From a virus: a stretch of DNA of 25,528 nucleotides. Under the pieces are notes generated by a model that saw only the letters and a list, made by a program, of their open reading frames with translations, did no database searches and had not been told where the DNA came from. Shown in pieces: positions 19,404 to 23,391 of this stretch. Every line of letters begins with the position of its first letter. The stretch's first letter is position 1. The position numbers were made by a program, and so were the translations under genes. The stretch is taken from IMG/VR virus record IMGVR_UViG_3300036791_000248, positions 1 to 25,528 of that record. One strand, given 5' to 3'.

Positions 19404-19432
19404 TTGACCACTCGGGCACTATGCCCTATATT
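19404..19432 (+). promoter_or_regulatory. Promoter P1 with operator dyad in the spacer
   Basis: TTGACC (19404-19409), a 17-nt spacer and TATATT (19427-19432) form a near-consensus sigma70 promoter. The spacer ends in the dyad GGGCA-CTA-TGCCC (19414-19426), touching the -10. A repressor there would block RNA polymerase. A start near 19439 gives a leader of about 400 nt before the first gene. The same design recurs at 22408-22436. Confidence 0.72.
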
Positions 19433-19593
19433 CACATCATCAGAACGGAACTGGGAATAGGGACGCCAGGTCGGCATGCCCAACACAAGACCCCCGACAA
19501 GGCAACGGCGATCGGCTTCCACCACCGACCGCGCGGGCAGGCGCTACGGCAACCTGCCCCAGCAACGTAAGCCATCGGACACAAAGTTACGAT

Positions 19594-19821
19594 CTCTGGA
19601 GTTTTGGAGATCAGCAAAAACACCCGTTTTAGCAAGGTGCCCGGTGCAAGTCCGGCGCGGGTTTGATGAGCGTCCTATAGCAAGAGGGCGGCAGAGTTTT
19701 TGCTGGTCCCCCAAACTCCAGAGCGTCTCTATATGGTCACGTATCGCAAGGTCACCGCACTGGTTACGATCGGCGCGGGCGCGCAACGCAACCCCAGGGT
19801 CCCCGTGATCATTTAGAGACG
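19594..19821 (+). ncRNA. Structured leader RNA with two abutting long helices
   Basis: Helix I pairs 19594-19621 with 19696-19723: 25 of 28 positions are Watson-Crick and one more is G-U. Its 74-nt loop contains ACCCG (19622-19626) facing CGGGT (19658-19662), and within that a small hairpin CCGG-TGCAAGT-CCGG (19641-19655). Helix II starts at the very next base and pairs 19724-19741 with 19804-19821: 16 of 18 Watson-Crick plus one G-U. Both lie downstream of P1 and end 25 nt before the first start codon. It could be a regulatory leader, a separate small RNA, or a DNA element for packaging or replication. It does not match any riboswitch or tRNA well enough to name. Confidence 0.55.
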
Positions 19822-19846
19822 TTCAACACAAACCGGAGTCTACAAA

Positions 19847-20137
19847 ATGCTTACCATCCAGCAAGAAGTCGCCGACAGTATGTCGCAAGTCGTCGCCAAA
19901 GTGTTCGGCAACGACGTGACGCGCGCCCAACTGACGTTTTTTTTCAATTTGGTTGCCGATAAGGCGAATTGGAAAAATCCGATCGACGCGGTCGTGTCCA
20001 TCGATTGCGATTTTGACATGGCGATGATCCGCGAGGCGGTGATTTTCTTTACCGGCTCGGTGCCGAATTTCACGGCCAAGGGTCGCAGCAAGTACCGCGT
20101 GACCGCGCAAGGCTATTACGTGGTCTGCGGCGCCTGA
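19847..20137 (+). CDS. Unknown small protein, first gene of P1 operon
   Basis: A 96-residue protein, not recognised. It begins with a helical stretch (QQEVADSMSQVVAKVFGNDV), continues through RAQLTFFFNLVADKANWKNP and IDCDFDMAMIREAVIFFTGS, and ends in YRVTAQGYYVVCGA. No signal peptide, membrane segment or known catalytic motif is visible. The alternation of amphipathic helices and a final strand suggests a folded cytoplasmic domain. The start is fixed by GGAGTCTAC eight bases upstream. The stop TGA is the first three bases of the first intergenic hairpin element. Confidence 0.75.
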   Translation: MLTIQQEVADSMSQVVAKVFGNDVTRAQLTFFFNLVADKANWKNPIDAVVSIDCDFDMAMIREAVIFFTGSVPNFTAKGRSKYRVTAQGYYVVCGA

Positions 20138-20175
20138 TCACTAAGGTCGCCCCACGGGGCGACTCATAGTGCTCA
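20135..20175 (+). repeat. Intergenic hairpin element, copy A (CACTA/TAGTG arms)
   Basis: The element starts with the stop codon of the previous gene (TGATCACTAAG). Outer arms are CACTA (20139-20143) and TAGTG (20167-20171). The inner stem is GTCGCCCC (20146-20153) with GGGGCGAC (20156-20163), perfectly paired. The order is CACTA, AG, 8-bp stem, TCA, TAGTG. There is no T-tract. Confidence 0.8.
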
Positions 20176-20193
20176 CCAACAACGGAGTCTAAC

Positions 20194-20361
20194 GTGAATA
20201 CCAAAGGCACATTCCGCACGCGCCAGACTGGCTATCAATTCGTGCTGGAACAGTTACGCAACGGAACGTGGGTTATCATCGAGTCGCTCTATTCATGGGA
20301 GCAAGTGGAGCAAGCGCATCTCGAATATACGGCTGATGGCCACACCATCGCTCATCACTGA
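20194..20361 (+). CDS. Unknown 55-residue protein with GTG start
   Basis: A small gene starting with GTG at 20194, six bases after the GGAG of GGAGTCTAA, and ending with the TGA that opens the second intergenic hairpin element. The product begins MNTKGTFRTRQTGYQFVLEQ and contains NGTWVIIESLYSWEQVEQAH. A strand-turn-strand-helix pattern is plausible. No family is recognised. Evidence that it is real is the same ribosome motif and stop-codon element as its neighbours, with a full frame between them. Confidence 0.7.
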   Translation: MNTKGTFRTRQTGYQFVLEQLRNGTWVIIESLYSWEQVEQAHLEYTADGHTIAHH

Positions 20362-20399
20362 TCACTAAGCGCCGCCCACGGGCGGCGTCATAGTGCTCA
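20359..20399 (+). repeat. Intergenic hairpin element, copy B
   Basis: Same layout as copy A: TGATCACTAAG including the stop codon, CACTA (20363-20367), inner stem CGCCGCCC (20370-20377) with GGGCGGCG (20380-20387), then TCA and TAGTG (20391-20395). The inner stem differs from copy A yet is fully paired. Confidence 0.8.
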
Positions 20400-20402
20400 C
20401 CC

Positions 20403-20417
20403 GGCCCTTGCAAGGCC
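20403..20417 (+). repeat. CTTGCA-loop hairpin, copy 1
   Basis: GGCC, 7-nt loop CTTGCAA, GGCC. It lies between hairpin element B and the GGAGTCTAC motif of the 78-residue gene. Confidence 0.6.
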
Positions 20418-20438
20418 ATCAACTAACGGAGTCTACAA

Positions 20439-20675
20439 ATGTTCGTTCACAACCCGAACGCTTTCCCGAAGCATCACAAGCCGAAAAACGTCAAACTGAC
20501 GGGCAAGGCTTACAGCAACCCGCGCGGCAACGTCGCACAAACCTTCAAAGGCGAGCACGTCAACAAGATAGACGGAGCTTGGGTGCTTGCGAAGCCGCAC
20601 CACGAGACCGCCGAGCAAGCCGCAAGCCGCGCCCTCGCGCGGATGCTGGCCCAGCCGCTCAAGCTGGCTGCTTGA
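20439..20675 (+). CDS. Unknown basic 78-residue protein
   Basis: The protein starts MFVHNPNAFPKHHKPKNVKL and is Lys/His/Asn-rich in its first half, then a predicted helix (ETAEQAASRALARMLAQPLK) closes it. The basic N-terminus suggests nucleic-acid binding, but nothing specific is recognised. The start is set by GGAGTCTAC seven to eight bases before ATG. The stop TGA begins intergenic element C. It is the third gene of the P1 operon, whose genes share these flanking elements. Confidence 0.72.
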   Translation: MFVHNPNAFPKHHKPKNVKLTGKAYSNPRGNVAQTFKGEHVNKIDGAWVLAKPHHETAEQAASRALARMLAQPLKLAA

Positions 20676-20717
20676 TCACTAAGGCCGACCCCGACGCGGG
20701 TCGGCTCATAGTGTTCA
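20673..20717 (+). repeat. Intergenic hairpin element, copy C
   Basis: Same layout: TGATCACTAAG with the stop codon, CACTA (20677-20681), inner stem GCCGACCC (20684-20691) with GGGTCGGC (20698-20705), TCA, TAGTG (20709-20713). The inner loop is 6 nt here against 2 nt in A and B. Stem sequence differs from both other copies and is perfectly paired. Confidence 0.8.
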
Positions 20718-20721
20718 TTCC

Positions 20722-20738
20722 CGACCACTTGCAGGTCG
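20722..20738 (+). repeat. CTTGCA-loop hairpin, copy 2
   Basis: CGACC, 7-nt loop ACTTGCA, GGTCG. It lies between element C and the ribosome motif of the 212-residue gene. Confidence 0.6.
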
Positions 20739-20758
20739 ATCTAACCAAGGAGTCTACA

Positions 20759-21397
20759 ATGTCACACTATCGTACATCTGAGGCGCACGTTGCCCGGCTG
20801 CTGAACCCGGACGACCCGCGCAAATTCTACATCGGCAAAGGCTCGACCAAGATCTCGGATAAGAATTCCGACGCGGTCGCCTACCTCGAAGATCGGCCCA
20901 ACGTGCAAACCGGCAAGATGCGTTATTTTGTCGTCGCGTTCGTTGGCAAGCAGACCAAGCCGATCGCTAACTTCTACTACACCAAGCCGGAAACCCGCGC
21001 CGCGAAGATCAAGGAAATCTTCGATGGCCGGCAAGCCAGCATGAAGTACAAGGCCGAACAGCGCGAAGCGAACAAGCAGACGCCCGACTACGCCGTCGGC
21101 GATGTGTTCGGGACCTGCTGGGGTTACGACCAGACCAACGTCGAGTTTTACGAGATCGTCGCGATCAAAGGTAAGACCGCGACGTTGCGCGAGTTGGCGC
21201 AGGATCGAAAAGAAACCCACTGGGCGCAAGGCCACACCGTGCCGCTGCCCGGTAAGTACATCGGTGAGGCGTTCGAAAAGCGCATCACGCCGTATGGTTT
21301 CAAAATCTCTTCATGCCAGCGCGCCACGCCTGAGTCGTTCGACACGGTCGCTGGCGTGAAGGTCTACAAGCCCCGGCATTGGTCGGCCTACGCATAA
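20759..21397 (+). CDS. Unknown 212-residue cytoplasmic protein
   Basis: The largest gene of the P1 operon. The start at 20759 (MSHYRTSEAH) is set by GGAGTCTAC; the frame is open far upstream, but that would run through element C and the previous gene. The N-terminal third has LNPDDPRKFYIGKGSTKISD and MRYFVVAFVGKQTKPIANFY, a beta-rich domain. A Lys/Glu-rich helix follows (AAKIKEIFDGRQASMKYKAE), then a second beta-rich domain (VGDVFGTCWGYDQTNVEFYE, later LPGKYIGEAFEKRI) that resembles small SH3-like or DUF folds. No catalytic motif or family was recognised. No membrane or signal segment is present. Confidence 0.78.
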   Translation: MSHYRTSEAHVARLLNPDDPRKFYIGKGSTKISDKNSDAVAYLEDRPNVQTGKMRYFVVAFVGKQTKPIANFYYTKPETRAAKIKEIFDGRQASMKYKAEQREANKQTPDYAVGDVFGTCWGYDQTNVEFYEIVAIKGKTATLRELAQDRKETHWAQGHTVPLPGKYIGEAFEKRITPYGFKISSCQRATPESFDTVAGVKVYKPRHWSAYA

Positions 21398-21407
21398 CCA
21401 TCAACTA

Positions 21408-21431
21408 CGGCGGCGCCTACGGGCGCCGTCG
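21408..21431 (+). repeat. Intergenic hairpin of divergent type (TACG loop)
   Basis: A 10-bp stem with one G-U pair (CGGCGGCGCC with GGCGCCGTCG) and tetraloop TACG lies between the 212- and 134-residue genes. It lacks CACTA/TAGTG arms. GTTGCAAAC follows, then GGAGTCTAC. It occupies the slot of elements A-C but has a different build. Confidence 0.65.
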
Positions 21432-21450
21432 TTGCAAACAGGAGTCTACA

Positions 21451-21855
21451 ATGCGCTTTGTTATCTTACTCGCGGCATGCTTGTTCGCAGGCAACGCCTA
21501 CGCCGCCCCGCAGATGCCGAAAGACCTGCAGGGCAAGTGGTGCGTCGACGATATTTTCACCTCCAACACGGCCACAGTCGGAACCAAAAGCTGCATCGGC
21601 TTGAATGAAGGCGCGGCGTACATTGTTAGCCCGCGCGGCTACTTCCATGACGGCGATCACTGCGATGTTGTTAAGATCAGGAAGCACGCCGCGCCGCCGT
21701 GGGATGACTCGTTCCGCCATCCCTGGCTCGGGCCGATCTATCATCTCGCGTTCAAATGCCGGGAAGGTGATATGGAAGGGTTCAATCCTGGCATCATCAA
21801 ACAGAGATGGCAAACGGTCGGCGAACGACTCGAAATCAAAAGGAGTCTACAATGA
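21451..21855 (+). CDS. Unknown secreted protein (Sec signal), 134 residues
   Basis: ATG at 21451 follows GGAGTCTAC. The N-terminus MRFVILLAACLFAGNAYA is a standard Sec signal peptide with likely cleavage before APQMP, so the mature protein of about 116 residues is periplasmic or released. It holds four or more cysteines (KWCVDD, KSCIGL, DHCDVV, FKCREG), suggesting disulphides. The pattern 'LQGKWC...' resembles small rhizobial secreted proteins of unknown function. Its last codons are read from the next ribosome motif (AGG AGT CTA CAA TGA), and it overlaps the next gene as ATGA. Confidence 0.75.
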   Translation: MRFVILLAACLFAGNAYAAPQMPKDLQGKWCVDDIFTSNTATVGTKSCIGLNEGAAYIVSPRGYFHDGDHCDVVKIRKHAAPPWDDSFRHPWLGPIYHLAFKCREGDMEGFNPGIIKQRWQTVGERLEIKRSLQ

Positions 21856-22163
21856 AAGTGATCTTACTCGCGGCGATGCTGGTGGCGTTCACCAGCTCGG
21901 CGCACGCGTACACTACCTGCACATATGTCGGCCCGTCGCTCGTGTGCAGCGAGTTCGGCAGCAACCGAACGCCTACTGTGATTAACCGCTACGGCTCGAC
22001 CTACTCGATCTCTGGTGGCGAATCCCGCCAGCTGCGATCGCCGCCGCCAAAGCCGTTGCGGCTGCCGCCGCCGCCAACGCCGGATCTTAATTGGAACGGG
22101 CAACCCTGCCCGCCGAACACCCAGCTGGTTGAGCACCGCGGGGAGCAAATAGTCTGCCAATAA
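21852..22163 (+). CDS. Unknown secreted Pro-rich protein, 103 residues
   Basis: MKVILLAAMLVAFTSSAHA is a Sec signal, with likely cleavage before YTTC. The mature part has two cysteines early (TCTYVGPSLVC), a short strand segment (VINRYGSTYSISGG), a Pro/Lys stretch (SPPPKPLRLPPPPTP) and two late cysteines (QPCPPNTQLVEHRGEQIVC). It reads as a small disulphide-bonded module with a Pro hinge. It starts inside the stop of the preceding secreted gene and is the last gene before the terminator. The tandem of two exported proteins suggests a moron-like function at the host envelope. That is inference. Confidence 0.72.
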   Translation: MKVILLAAMLVAFTSSAHAYTTCTYVGPSLVCSEFGSNRTPTVINRYGSTYSISGGESRQLRSPPPKPLRLPPPPTPDLNWNGQPCPPNTQLVEHRGEQIVCQ

Positions 22164-22171
22164 AAGCGGGC

Positions 22172-22198
22172 CGGGTGACGCTTGCAACGTCGATCCCG
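22172..22198 (+). repeat. CTTGCA-loop hairpin, copy 3
   Basis: GACG (22177-22180), 7-nt loop CTTGCAA, CGTC (22188-22191), with an outer pair CGGG (22172-22175) / CCCG (22195-22198) across a small internal loop. It follows the stop of the 103-residue gene. Confidence 0.6.
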
Positions 22199-22208
22199 AC
22201 CCTATGCT

Positions 22209-22234
22209 CGACGCGAGGAGTCTACCACTCGCGT
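22209..22234 (+). repeat. Orphan GGAGTCTAC in a hairpin loop, no gene following
   Basis: ACGCGAG (22211-22217) pairs with CTCGCGT (22228-22234), and the motif GGAGTCTAC (22217-22225) lies in the loop. No start codon with a usable frame follows before the terminator. It is probably the remnant left after loss of a gene at the end of the P1 operon. Confidence 0.55.
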
Positions 22235-22260
22235 TGAGCCTCCCTGGAACTTACACTAAC

Positions 22261-22292
22261 CGCCCCGGCCTCACCAGCCGGGGCGTTTTTTT
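22261..22292 (+). terminator. Intrinsic terminator of the P1 operon
   Basis: A perfect 9-bp GC-rich stem (CGCCCCGGC with GCCGGGGCG, loop CTCACCA) is followed directly by seven T on the plus strand. It ends the first plus-strand operon. Confidence 0.92.
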
Positions 22293-22311
22293 GTGTCCAA
22301 AATCCGGCGCC

Positions 22312-22398
22312 CTACAGATACAGCAGGACTATCACGAGGCCGATCGCCGCCAGCGCCAGCACTGTCAGCGCGTAGATAAACCAGCGATCATCGAGCAT
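22312..22398 (-). CDS. Possible 28-residue single-span membrane miniprotein
   Basis: ATG at 22398 to TAG at 22312-22314 encodes 28 residues. MLDDRWFIY is followed by about 18 hydrophobic residues (LTVLALAAIGLVIVLLYL), a clean transmembrane helix with a charged N-terminus. No ribosome site is visible and it sits back to back with promoter P2, so it could be chance. Small phage membrane peptides of this kind do occur as inhibitors or lysis regulators. The function is unknown. Confidence 0.35.
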   Translation of the reverse strand: MLDDRWFIYALTVLALAAIGLVIVLLYL

Positions 22399-22407
22399 AT
22401 ATTTGGC

Positions 22408-22436
22408 TTGCGTTACCGGGCACATTGCCCTATGTA
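22408..22436 (+). promoter_or_regulatory. Promoter P2 with the same operator dyad as P1
   Basis: TTGCGT (22408-22413), 17-nt spacer, TATGTA (22431-22436). The spacer ends in GGGCA-CAT-TGCCC (22418-22430), with the same arms, spacing and place against the -10 as P1. The shared core reads CGGGCA-N3-TGCCCTAT. The predicted start near 22443 places the CTTGCA hairpin at the very 5' end of the transcript. Confidence 0.7.
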
Positions 22437-22444
22437 TTGAACCT

Positions 22445-22461
22445 GGCGGCCTTGCACCGCC
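22445..22461 (+). repeat. CTTGCA-loop hairpin, copy 4
   Basis: GGCGG, 7-nt loop CCTTGCA, CCGCC. It would be the first structure in the P2 transcript, 14 nt before GGAGTCTAC. Confidence 0.62.
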
Positions 22462-22486: not shown

Positions 22487-22768
22487 ATGCTCACCGACAA
22501 CAAACGCCTTGACGAAATCCGCGCCATCATACGCGCACGCACTGGCAAACCGAAAACCTGCCGCGCCGCCCTGATCATCTTACGCGGCTGTCCGACCGGC
22601 GCCACCGAGCGCGCCCTGGAGGTCAACGGCGTCACGCTCGCAGCCCTCGACGAACTCGTGCGCCTCGGCCTCGCGTGCTGCACGATCGACACACTCACCA
22701 ACGGGATGCAGATCCCGCGCTACACCATCACGCCCGTGGGGCGCGGCACACTGGAGGGCGGGCGATGA
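22487..22768 (+). CDS. Winged-helix-like small protein, first gene of P2 operon
   Basis: The 93-residue protein starts at 22487 after GGAGTCTAC. The pattern CRAALIILRGCPTGATERAL, then TLAALDELVRLGLACCTID and RYTITPVGR, fits a small winged helix: two helices, a recognition-type helix and a beta wing. Such proteins are often regulators, and this one is a candidate for the factor that binds the shared P1/P2 dyad. The call is by pattern only. It contains three cysteines of unclear role. It overlaps the next gene as ATGA. Confidence 0.6.
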   Translation: MLTDNKRLDEIRAIIRARTGKPKTCRAALIILRGCPTGATERALEVNGVTLAALDELVRLGLACCTIDTLTNGMQIPRYTITPVGRGTLEGGR

Positions 22769-23001
22769 CCACGCGGCTTCCACCGTCCGTCGCGCAGGCG
22801 ATCCGCAAAGCGCGGCACGTCCATCTCGCTGTCGAGGATCGCTATCACGATCTCGTCCGAACCCAATGGGTCCGCGTCAGCAAGGCCGAGGCTCGGCGCA
22901 TCATGCGGATGCGGCCCGACGAGGCCGAGTTGCCGATCATCCAGATCAGCGACGAGGGCGATGCCTACATCGCGCCCGGCTATCAGGAGGGTCGCGAATG
23001 A
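22765..23001 (+). CDS. Unknown 78-residue protein
   Basis: ATG at 22765 overlaps the previous stop (ATGA), with GGAGGGCGGGCG just upstream. The protein starts with a helix (PPSVAQAIRKARHVHLAVED), has VRVSKAEARRIMRMRP and ends with a short beta hairpin (LPIIQISDEGDAYIAPGY). It is basic in the middle. No family is recognised. The tight overlaps on both sides suggest expression together with its neighbours. Confidence 0.65.
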   Translation: MTTRLPPSVAQAIRKARHVHLAVEDRYHDLVRTQWVRVSKAEARRIMRMRPDEAELPIIQISDEGDAYIAPGYQEGRE

Positions 23002-23165
23002 CCCGTCGCTTTAATCTGTGCTCGGTCTGCGGCCATCGGCACGCACCGGCCTATGATTTCCGGCGAGTGTTGCAACGCTTCGGGCTCAAGGGTGAGCGCG
23101 CGGCGGTCGGATGTATCCAGCGACTTTTCGCACGAACATTGGAGCACGATGACAATGGCAACTAA
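22998..23165 (+). CDS. Unknown 55-residue protein with CxxCGxxH cluster
   Basis: ATG at 22998 overlaps the previous stop as ATGA, and AGGAGGGTCGCGA precedes it. The N-terminus FNLCSVCGHRHAP holds a Cys-x-x-Cys-Gly-x-x-His cluster that could bind zinc, followed by a basic helix (FRRVLQRFGLKGERAAVGC). A single ligand cluster with one more Cys could complete a site. The size suits a small nucleic-acid-binding knuckle. Function unknown. Confidence 0.6.
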   Translation: MTRRFNLCSVCGHRHAPAYDFRRVLQRFGLKGERAAVGCIQRLFARTLEHDDNGN

Positions 23166-23391
23166 GCGATCAAAGCGTAAGCCGCGCGCGCCCAAGGTGA
23201 TAGTGCGCGACACACAGTCAAAATTCGGCGACCACCTCGACGAACTCGGGCTGCATTTCCTGCGCTTCGCACAGATCATCGGCCGCGACGAGCGCACCGT
23301 GCGGCGTTGGCGAACCGGCGAAAAGCCCACACCGACCGAGGTGATGATGCTGCTGGAGTCTTGGATCAGGCACGGAGACGGACCACGATGA
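23149..23391 (+). CDS. Helix-turn-helix DNA-binding protein (Cro/XRE-like)
   Basis: The 80-residue protein has a very basic start (TKRSKRKPRAPK) and an HTH in FLRFAQIIGRDERTVRRWRT, a form frequent in alphaproteobacterial prophage regulators (two helices, GRDERTVRRW recognition helix, GEKPTPTEV). It is a leading candidate for the repressor of P1 and P2, since it lies in the P2 operon and could regulate itself. Two starts are possible: 23149 (GGAG spacing 4) or 23155 (spacing 10). The gene overlaps its upstream neighbour by 17 nt and the next gene by ATGA. Confidence 0.68.
   Translation: MTMATKRSKRKPRAPKVIVRDTQSKFGDHLDELGLHFLRFAQIIGRDERTVRRWRTGEKPTPTEVMMLLESWIRHGDGPR

Follow-up and report, generated by a model that had tools for sequence, protein, structure and literature searches.

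The IMG/VR viral record IMGVR_UViG_3300036791_000248, a linear fragment of 25,528 bp analyzed over its full length (here called the window), carries two plus-strand promoters, P1 (19404–19432) and P2 (22408–22436), with the same inverted repeat between the −35 and −10 hexamers. Both are probably self-limiting early promoters of the type found in anti-CRISPR (acr) and anti-CRISPR-associated (aca) operons, under the control of an Aca-like autorepressor predicted to be the product of g10 (23149–23391), an 80-residue helix-turn-helix (HTH) protein encoded downstream of P2 on the same strand. Judged from sequence, one such repressor most likely has its operators in both promoters, given the observed promoter geometry, the symmetric arm changes with which it recurs in other phages, the linkage to the HTH family of g10, the match with Aca1, and the covariation between a recognition-helix residue and an operator base.

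The proposed mechanism extends from this layout to binding, dimerization, repression, timing, and the roles of the remaining genes. Host sigma-70 RNA polymerase would transcribe P1 and P2 immediately upon infection. The P2 operon would supply a small dimeric HTH repressor related to Aca1, which would bind the 13-bp dyad between −35 and −10 at both promoters and block the polymerase. Both operons, including the repressor's own, would then shut off. The small genes carried by the P1 and P2 operons would plausibly serve in anti-defense.

Twin promoters and their counterparts in other phages

Direct reading of the sequence confirms the promoters, spacers, and arms described in the original prediction. 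P1 reads TTGACC-N17-TATATT with the spacer ACTCGGGCACTATGCCC, and P2 reads TTGCGT-N17-TATGTA with the spacer TACCGGGCACATTGCCC. The common frame is TTG-N7-[GGGCA-N3-TGCCC]-TAT, with a C before and TAT after the dyad as shared flanks. The putative operators, dyad 1 (GGGCA-CTA-TGCCC, 19414–19426) and dyad 2 (GGGCA-CAT-TGCCC, 22418–22430), touch the −10 hexamer and are the only exact copies of GGGCA-N3-TGCCC in the 25.5-kb fragment, to which the scan extends, no full genome existing; within it, no exact copy lies away from the two promoters.

The claim that such a pair is very unlikely by chance fails for the arms alone and holds for the full geometry. A repeated dyad class (any 5-bp dyad, gap 0 to 12) with at least 4 extra matching flank bases appears in 93 of 200 window shuffles, and in 6 of 200 when restricted to gap 3; the arms were dropped as sole proof. 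The arrangement TTG-N7-(5-N3-5)-TA is present twice in the window, compared to 488 shuffles with none, 12 with one, and 0 with two among 500. In viral contigs, CGGGCA-N3-TGCCCTAT matches at least 119 stretches. The CGGGCA dyad without the promoter frame is uninformative, since most matches lack a correctly placed TTG (present in 8 of the 119 matches listed, 6 of them distinct).

The same geometry is found in other, unrelated phages, with arms that differ but stay symmetric. L211, a locus retrieved via an intergenic hairpin and sharing the leader RNA of the window, shows TTGCGT-CCTAGGCCATTGTGGCC-TATGTT at the corresponding place, that is, TTGCGT-CCTA-GGCCA-TTG-TGGCC-TATGTT. The change from GGGCA/TGCCC to GGCCA/TGGCC is symmetric in the two arms. 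Loci collected for other reasons show the geometry as well, with the arms GGCCA in L152 (collected through its terminase, 56% identical), GGACC in L163, and GGGCC in L181. A search for the frame with any arms, leaving out the set fetched by the dyad, gives 9 matches at the right offset versus 0 to 4 at each of 15 other offsets. These comprise the two of the window, L211 and its repeat L342, L152, L163, L181, and the AT-rich matches L168 and L198, the last two probably due to chance.

A blind scan of IMG/VR viral contigs with the pattern CTTGAC-N5-GG-N9-CC-TATATT, which leaves three positions free per arm, yields 53 sites in 51 stretches: 12 perfect dyads and 19, 12, and 10 sites with one, two, and three arm mismatches, respectively. 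With near-duplicates removed, 28 sites remain, in which 47 of the 84 free arm positions show complementarity; 10,000 permutations of right arms among sites average 23.7 and reach at most 41. Perfect dyads then number 6 versus 0.93 under permutation, and the complementarity signal is seen at gap 3 only. Among 34 whole phage records, each chosen for at least one match, the pattern occurs 61 times forward versus once reversed; 6 of these records carry 4 to 7 such promoters, on one strand per record. A small open reading frame (ORF) lies closely 3′ of many of them.

The HTH family of g10 and its likeness to Aca1

The original prediction had named two candidate repressors, the HTH protein g10 and the winged-helix-like product of g7 (22487–22768, 93 residues). 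Only the former gains support. An all-against-all comparison of the ORFs in 36 promoter loci, made with no candidate named, shows the HTH family of g10 as the most shared; it is present in 19 loci, and the next family in 5. The HTH profile matches 21 of the 36 promoter loci versus 0 of 54 control viral loci and, in whole records at E ≤ 1e-6, 27 of 49 versus 1 of 50 controls (5 of 50 controls at E ≤ 1e-3). The profile rows came from 20 of the 49 records, and 7 of the remaining 29 match. The HTH gene lies on the promoter strand in all 21 loci and downstream in 19, in several within ∼300 bp. For g7, a family search gives no match and tblastn finds no relative at E 1e-3 among the loci then collected, which leaves it without support as a repressor.

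Profile and model indicate that g10 is a small HTH protein homologous to Aca1; membership in a numbered Aca family is not claimed. The best match of the HTH profile in the Protein Data Bank (PDB) is Aca1 (E = 2.4e-8), followed by HigA2, Aca3, and Aca2. The AlphaFold2 model of g10, with a mean predicted local distance difference test score of 86, aligns best with Aca2 (Z 9.2, root mean square deviation [rmsd] 1.1, 53 residues). Superposition on Aca1 bound to its palindrome gives Z 7.3 and an rmsd of 1.8 over 57 residues with 25% identity, where a Z under 8 can mean a common fold.

The known system closest in layout is the acrIF1-aca1 operon of Pseudomonas phage JBD30. Its promoter, TTGCGA-ATTAGGCACAATGTGCC-TAATCT, reads TTG-N7-[GGCAC-AAT-GTGCC]-TA with a 17-nucleotide (nt) spacer and a 5-N3-5 dyad touching −10, and it is the sole match of the frame in the 12.5 kb of JBD30 examined. 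A small HTH protein of the g10 fold is likewise encoded in the operon. The promoters of the window share with acr-aca promoters the sigma-70 −35 and −10 hexamers, weak in P2, and an inverted repeat within the core promoter, placed in the JBD30 register. JBD30 differs in having a single promoter, which has a further dyad upstream, and a single acr gene. In the window, each of the two promoters has one dyad and the genes number six or more; the arms are GGGCA, the recognition helix has an arginine rather than a tyrosine, and there is no known acr gene. In the available text of PMC9410881, the JBD30 promoter repeats are printed as the Aca1-binding site. As far as the accessible portion of PMC9410906 describes them, Aca families 1 to 10 all have an inverted repeat within a strong core promoter and an HTH autorepressor in the operon, the Acas repressing their own promoters in Escherichia coli. 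The operons described there have one promoter each, compared to two in the window and 4 to 7 in the six phage records mentioned above. Those layout identities, the symmetric arm changes, the HTH linkage, and the covariation given below support the earlier proposal that one repressor serves both promoters.

Other systems resemble the window in part. The antitoxins HigA2 (Z 7.7) and MqsA (Z 7.6), HTH autorepressors of toxin-antitoxin operons, share the fold of g10, and MqsA binds a palindrome of the 5-N3-5 type. The match of g10 with the MqsA family TIGR03830 (E = 0.0097) remains below the family cutoff, and with 80 residues g10 is presumably too short to house the zinc domain of MqsA. No toxin family is found in library scans among the neighbors g1 to g8 and g11 (g9 and g12 lie outside the scan). 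In archaeal viruses, according to the part of PMC11065993 at hand, anti-defense gene sets are defined by regulatory sequence, an early promoter element held in common marking several candidate genes per virus; the window differs by having an Aca1-type operator in a sigma-70 promoter of bacterial type. The SAS/ESAS repeats of cluster K mycobacteriophages, in the text available of PMC3203893, are similar in lying at translation starts, as GGAGTCTAC does in the window, some with an upstream inverted repeat. They differ in sequence and host, and in the window the hairpin overlaps the upstream stop codon.

Further evidence comes from the recognition helix of g10, ERTVRRW. Its residue R53, the second arginine of RRW, is the position tested, assigned by eye against the 434 repressor. 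The covariation test is confined to blind-scan sites, in which arm position 4 is free, and covers 19 records with a readable HTH protein after dropping the near-duplicate L393. The 14 records with arginine at this position show C at arm position 4 in most half-sites; the 5 records with A, L, Y, S, or G have no such half-site. Permutation gives p = 0.00014, a value that becomes 0.00028 when related array phages are collapsed (n = 15) and 0.0048 when the test is restricted to a strict set of 12 records. Aca1 of JBD30 has a tyrosine at the R53 position and an A at operator position 4. R30, Q33, and Y34 of Aca2 are listed among the residues important for promoter recognition in the available part of PMC9410881. 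By its spacing in the sequence, Y34 seems to correspond to R53 of g10.

Alternative explanations

Several observations weigh against control of both promoters by g10. The hexamers of P2 match sigma-70 at only 3 of 6 positions each and are not flagged by a consensus scan, compared to a good match at 10 of 12 positions for P1. No such HTH appears in the DNA examined of 15 of the 36 promoter loci, nor at E ≤ 0.001 in 22 of the 49 whole records, some of which are short or non-dyad, and the HTH gene precedes the promoter in L032 and L181. L032 (asparagine) and L110 (glycine) have C at position 4 without the arginine; these exceptions came from a search pattern in which C4 is fixed and stand outside the test. 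Searched alone against Pfam, g10 gives nothing above the cutoff. In 23 viral relatives of g4 (L003 to L025), neither GGGCA-N3-TGCCC nor, 5′ of g4, TTG-N6..8-dyad-TA is found. No known Acr is detected in Pfam, PHROGs, and NCBIfam for g1 to g8, g10, and g11, these libraries holding few Acr families and g9 and g12 lying outside the scan.

The absences of the HTH gene and its upstream position in two loci, together with the frequency of small HTH genes in phages, favor the view that another protein binds the dyad and that the HTH gene is a common hitchhiker regulating something else. This is unlikely in view of the excess in promoter-bearing records over controls, the covariation of helix and base, and the Aca1 parallel in both fold and promoter. 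Quite unlikely, too, is the binding of a host transcription factor, with the phage carrying host operator sites. The hexamers are of the host sigma-70 type and promoter palindromes are often operators, which fits this idea. However, the arms vary between phages and covary with a phage-encoded helix. Alphaproteobacterial genomes are without such promoters; the blind pattern, present in 51 viral stretches, occurs in 0 of 297 bacterial genomes of one order and in 1 of 385 of one class, that one not being a dyad, the host's own genome not among them.

The dyad could also act as a DNA hairpin aiding RNA polymerase rather than as an operator. The promoters of the phage N4 virion polymerase use a DNA hairpin. 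Frpo single-strand promoters of plasmids are a further example, as described in the available text of PMC11541004. A 5-bp stem with a 3-nt loop and pairing kept through symmetric changes would suit such a role. It is nevertheless very unlikely, as P1 and the scanned copies have good hexamers at 17 bp (the latter by scan design), the GG...CC ends are conserved, one position covaries with a protein residue, and a virion RNA polymerase is not found among the structural genes scanned. Least credible is a chance resemblance of two GC-rich spacers, which the any-class repeats in shuffles might suggest. It is refuted in the main by the full geometry, found twice in none of the shuffles, and by the compensating arms in other phages. 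Control of P1 and P2 by one Aca-like autorepressor remains the best explanation.

Operon genes, RNA elements, and wider meaning

The packaging, head, and contractile-tail proteins of the window are encoded on the minus strand, and the large terminase is closest to its counterpart in Paracoccus phage vB_PyeM_Pyei1 (52%). The small plus-strand genes begin from 19404. The P1 operon consists of g1 (19847–20137, 96 residues, preceded by a GGAGTCTAC leader), for which family searches give no match; g2 (20194–20361, 55 residues, GTG start), g3 (20439–20675, 78 residues), g5 (21451–21855, 134 residues), and g6 (21852–22163, 103 residues), which have no assigned family; and g4 (20759–21397, 212 residues), which belongs to phrog_37844 of unknown function. 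An intrinsic terminator (22261–22292, of which 22261–22285 are followed by a T run) closes this operon ahead of P2. Downstream of P2, g7 is followed by g8 (22765–23001, 78 residues, no assigned family) and by g10.

The small genes of both operons are plausibly anti-defense genes, which is a guess. A lead on this question is g4, through its HTH neighbors and plasmid matches. An HTH gene of the g10 family lies 3′ of g4 on the same strand, within 91 to 458 bp, in 7 of the 23 viral relatives. By tblastn, g4 matches 2,742 plasmid records, 2,531 of them classed as conjugative; most matches are partial, and only 31 records cover at least 80% of its length. The plasmid records include an IncI2 plasmid of E. 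coli with an Xre-like HTH gene downstream.

P1 is followed by a long structured leader RNA of ∼400 nt (19433–19846). The fold of 19560–19846 has a z score of −4.0 against shuffles, with two long hairpins at about 19594–19723 and 19723–19823. Two blocks of the leader are shared with L211, one of 186 nt at 87% identity and one of 138 nt at 93%. In comparison with L211:4934–5442, both ends are nearly identical and the middle hairpin domain differs. No Rfam family is found for the leader, a group II intron match (E 0.97) being far below the gathering score, and no match is found in phages or plasmids. Exact 21-mers of the leader occur in viral contigs in L211 only, and other whole records give weak short matches only. 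A search by GGGAATAGGGACGCC, a query too short for this purpose, matches at least 119 genome-collection stretches, and among the collected loci blastn finds a leader homologue in L211 only. The unit of promoter, leader, and small genes looks like a movable cassette from its sequence context. The cassette of L211 (L211:4300–7732) is a plus-strand island amid long minus-strand open frames; that of the window, unlike that of L211, adjoins the small terminase.

Three copies of intergenic hairpin A follow g1 (20135–20175), g2 (20359–20399), and g3 (20673–20717), each starting on the UGA stop codon of the gene before it, and the hairpin is also present in L088, L159, L163, L164, L192, L193, L194, L211, and L212. 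Its consensus is UGAUCACU(A/G)..(C/U)AGUG(U/C)UCA with compensating inner stems and, in some copies, a UNCG-like loop. In 17 distinct copies, a set that leaves out duplicates and the L181 copy without the outer three pairs, all 272 of 272 pair cells are standard and 7 of 16 pairs are changed on both sides; the covariation score is reached by 0 of 500 shuffles. By these comparisons, hairpin A appears to be a new RNA element in the phages that carry it. A second small hairpin with a CUUGCA loop and varying stems stands before several genes (20404–20420, 20725–20740, 22174–22190, and 22445–22461) and also follows hairpin A in other phages. The ribosome-site motif GGAGTCTA has eight copies, confined to the P1/P2 region, in the extended form GGAGTCTA(C) before the early genes at 19835, 20184, 20428, 20749, 21441, 21842, 22217, and 22475. 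No gene goes with the copy at 22217, which is placed in the loop of a putative hairpin immediately ahead of the terminator.

A GGGCA-like hairpin followed by GCC or GGC is seen just 3′ of −10, near the 5′ end of the transcript, in L363, L390, L380, L381, L382, L385, L032, and L110. Aca2 reportedly binds RNA, as a 2024 paper is said to show. RNA binding by g10 is unsupported, as the 5′ GGGCA-type hairpins do not change along with the operator arms of the phage that carries them.

Autorepression by Aca proteins is itself already known, and a shared promoter motif for anti-defense genes has been described in archaeal viruses (PMC11065993, in its available part). In the open-licence papers searched, no account was found of one Aca-like protein serving several bacteriophage promoters, nor of a family-wide helix-to-operator rule for Aca-like proteins. 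As a tentative generalization, which may well not hold, a widespread class of environmental phages could place early regulons of several promoters, two here and up to seven elsewhere, under Aca-like HTH proteins acting as master regulators, and part of the operator could be deduced from the protein, with helix residue R53 setting operator position 4. If one Aca-like protein governs several promoters, the known one-operon arrangement would be extended to multi-promoter regulons, and a helix-to-operator rule would predict which repressor controls which promoter. The search for anti-CRISPR and other counter-defense genes is difficult, since these are small and mutually dissimilar. A promoter and repressor signature searchable in sequence would lead to candidate lists in uncultured phages without any known Acr. 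If the generalization is true, every gene behind such a promoter becomes a candidate for anti-defense, and the P1 leader of ∼400 nt becomes a new RNA with a regulatory or anti-defense role.

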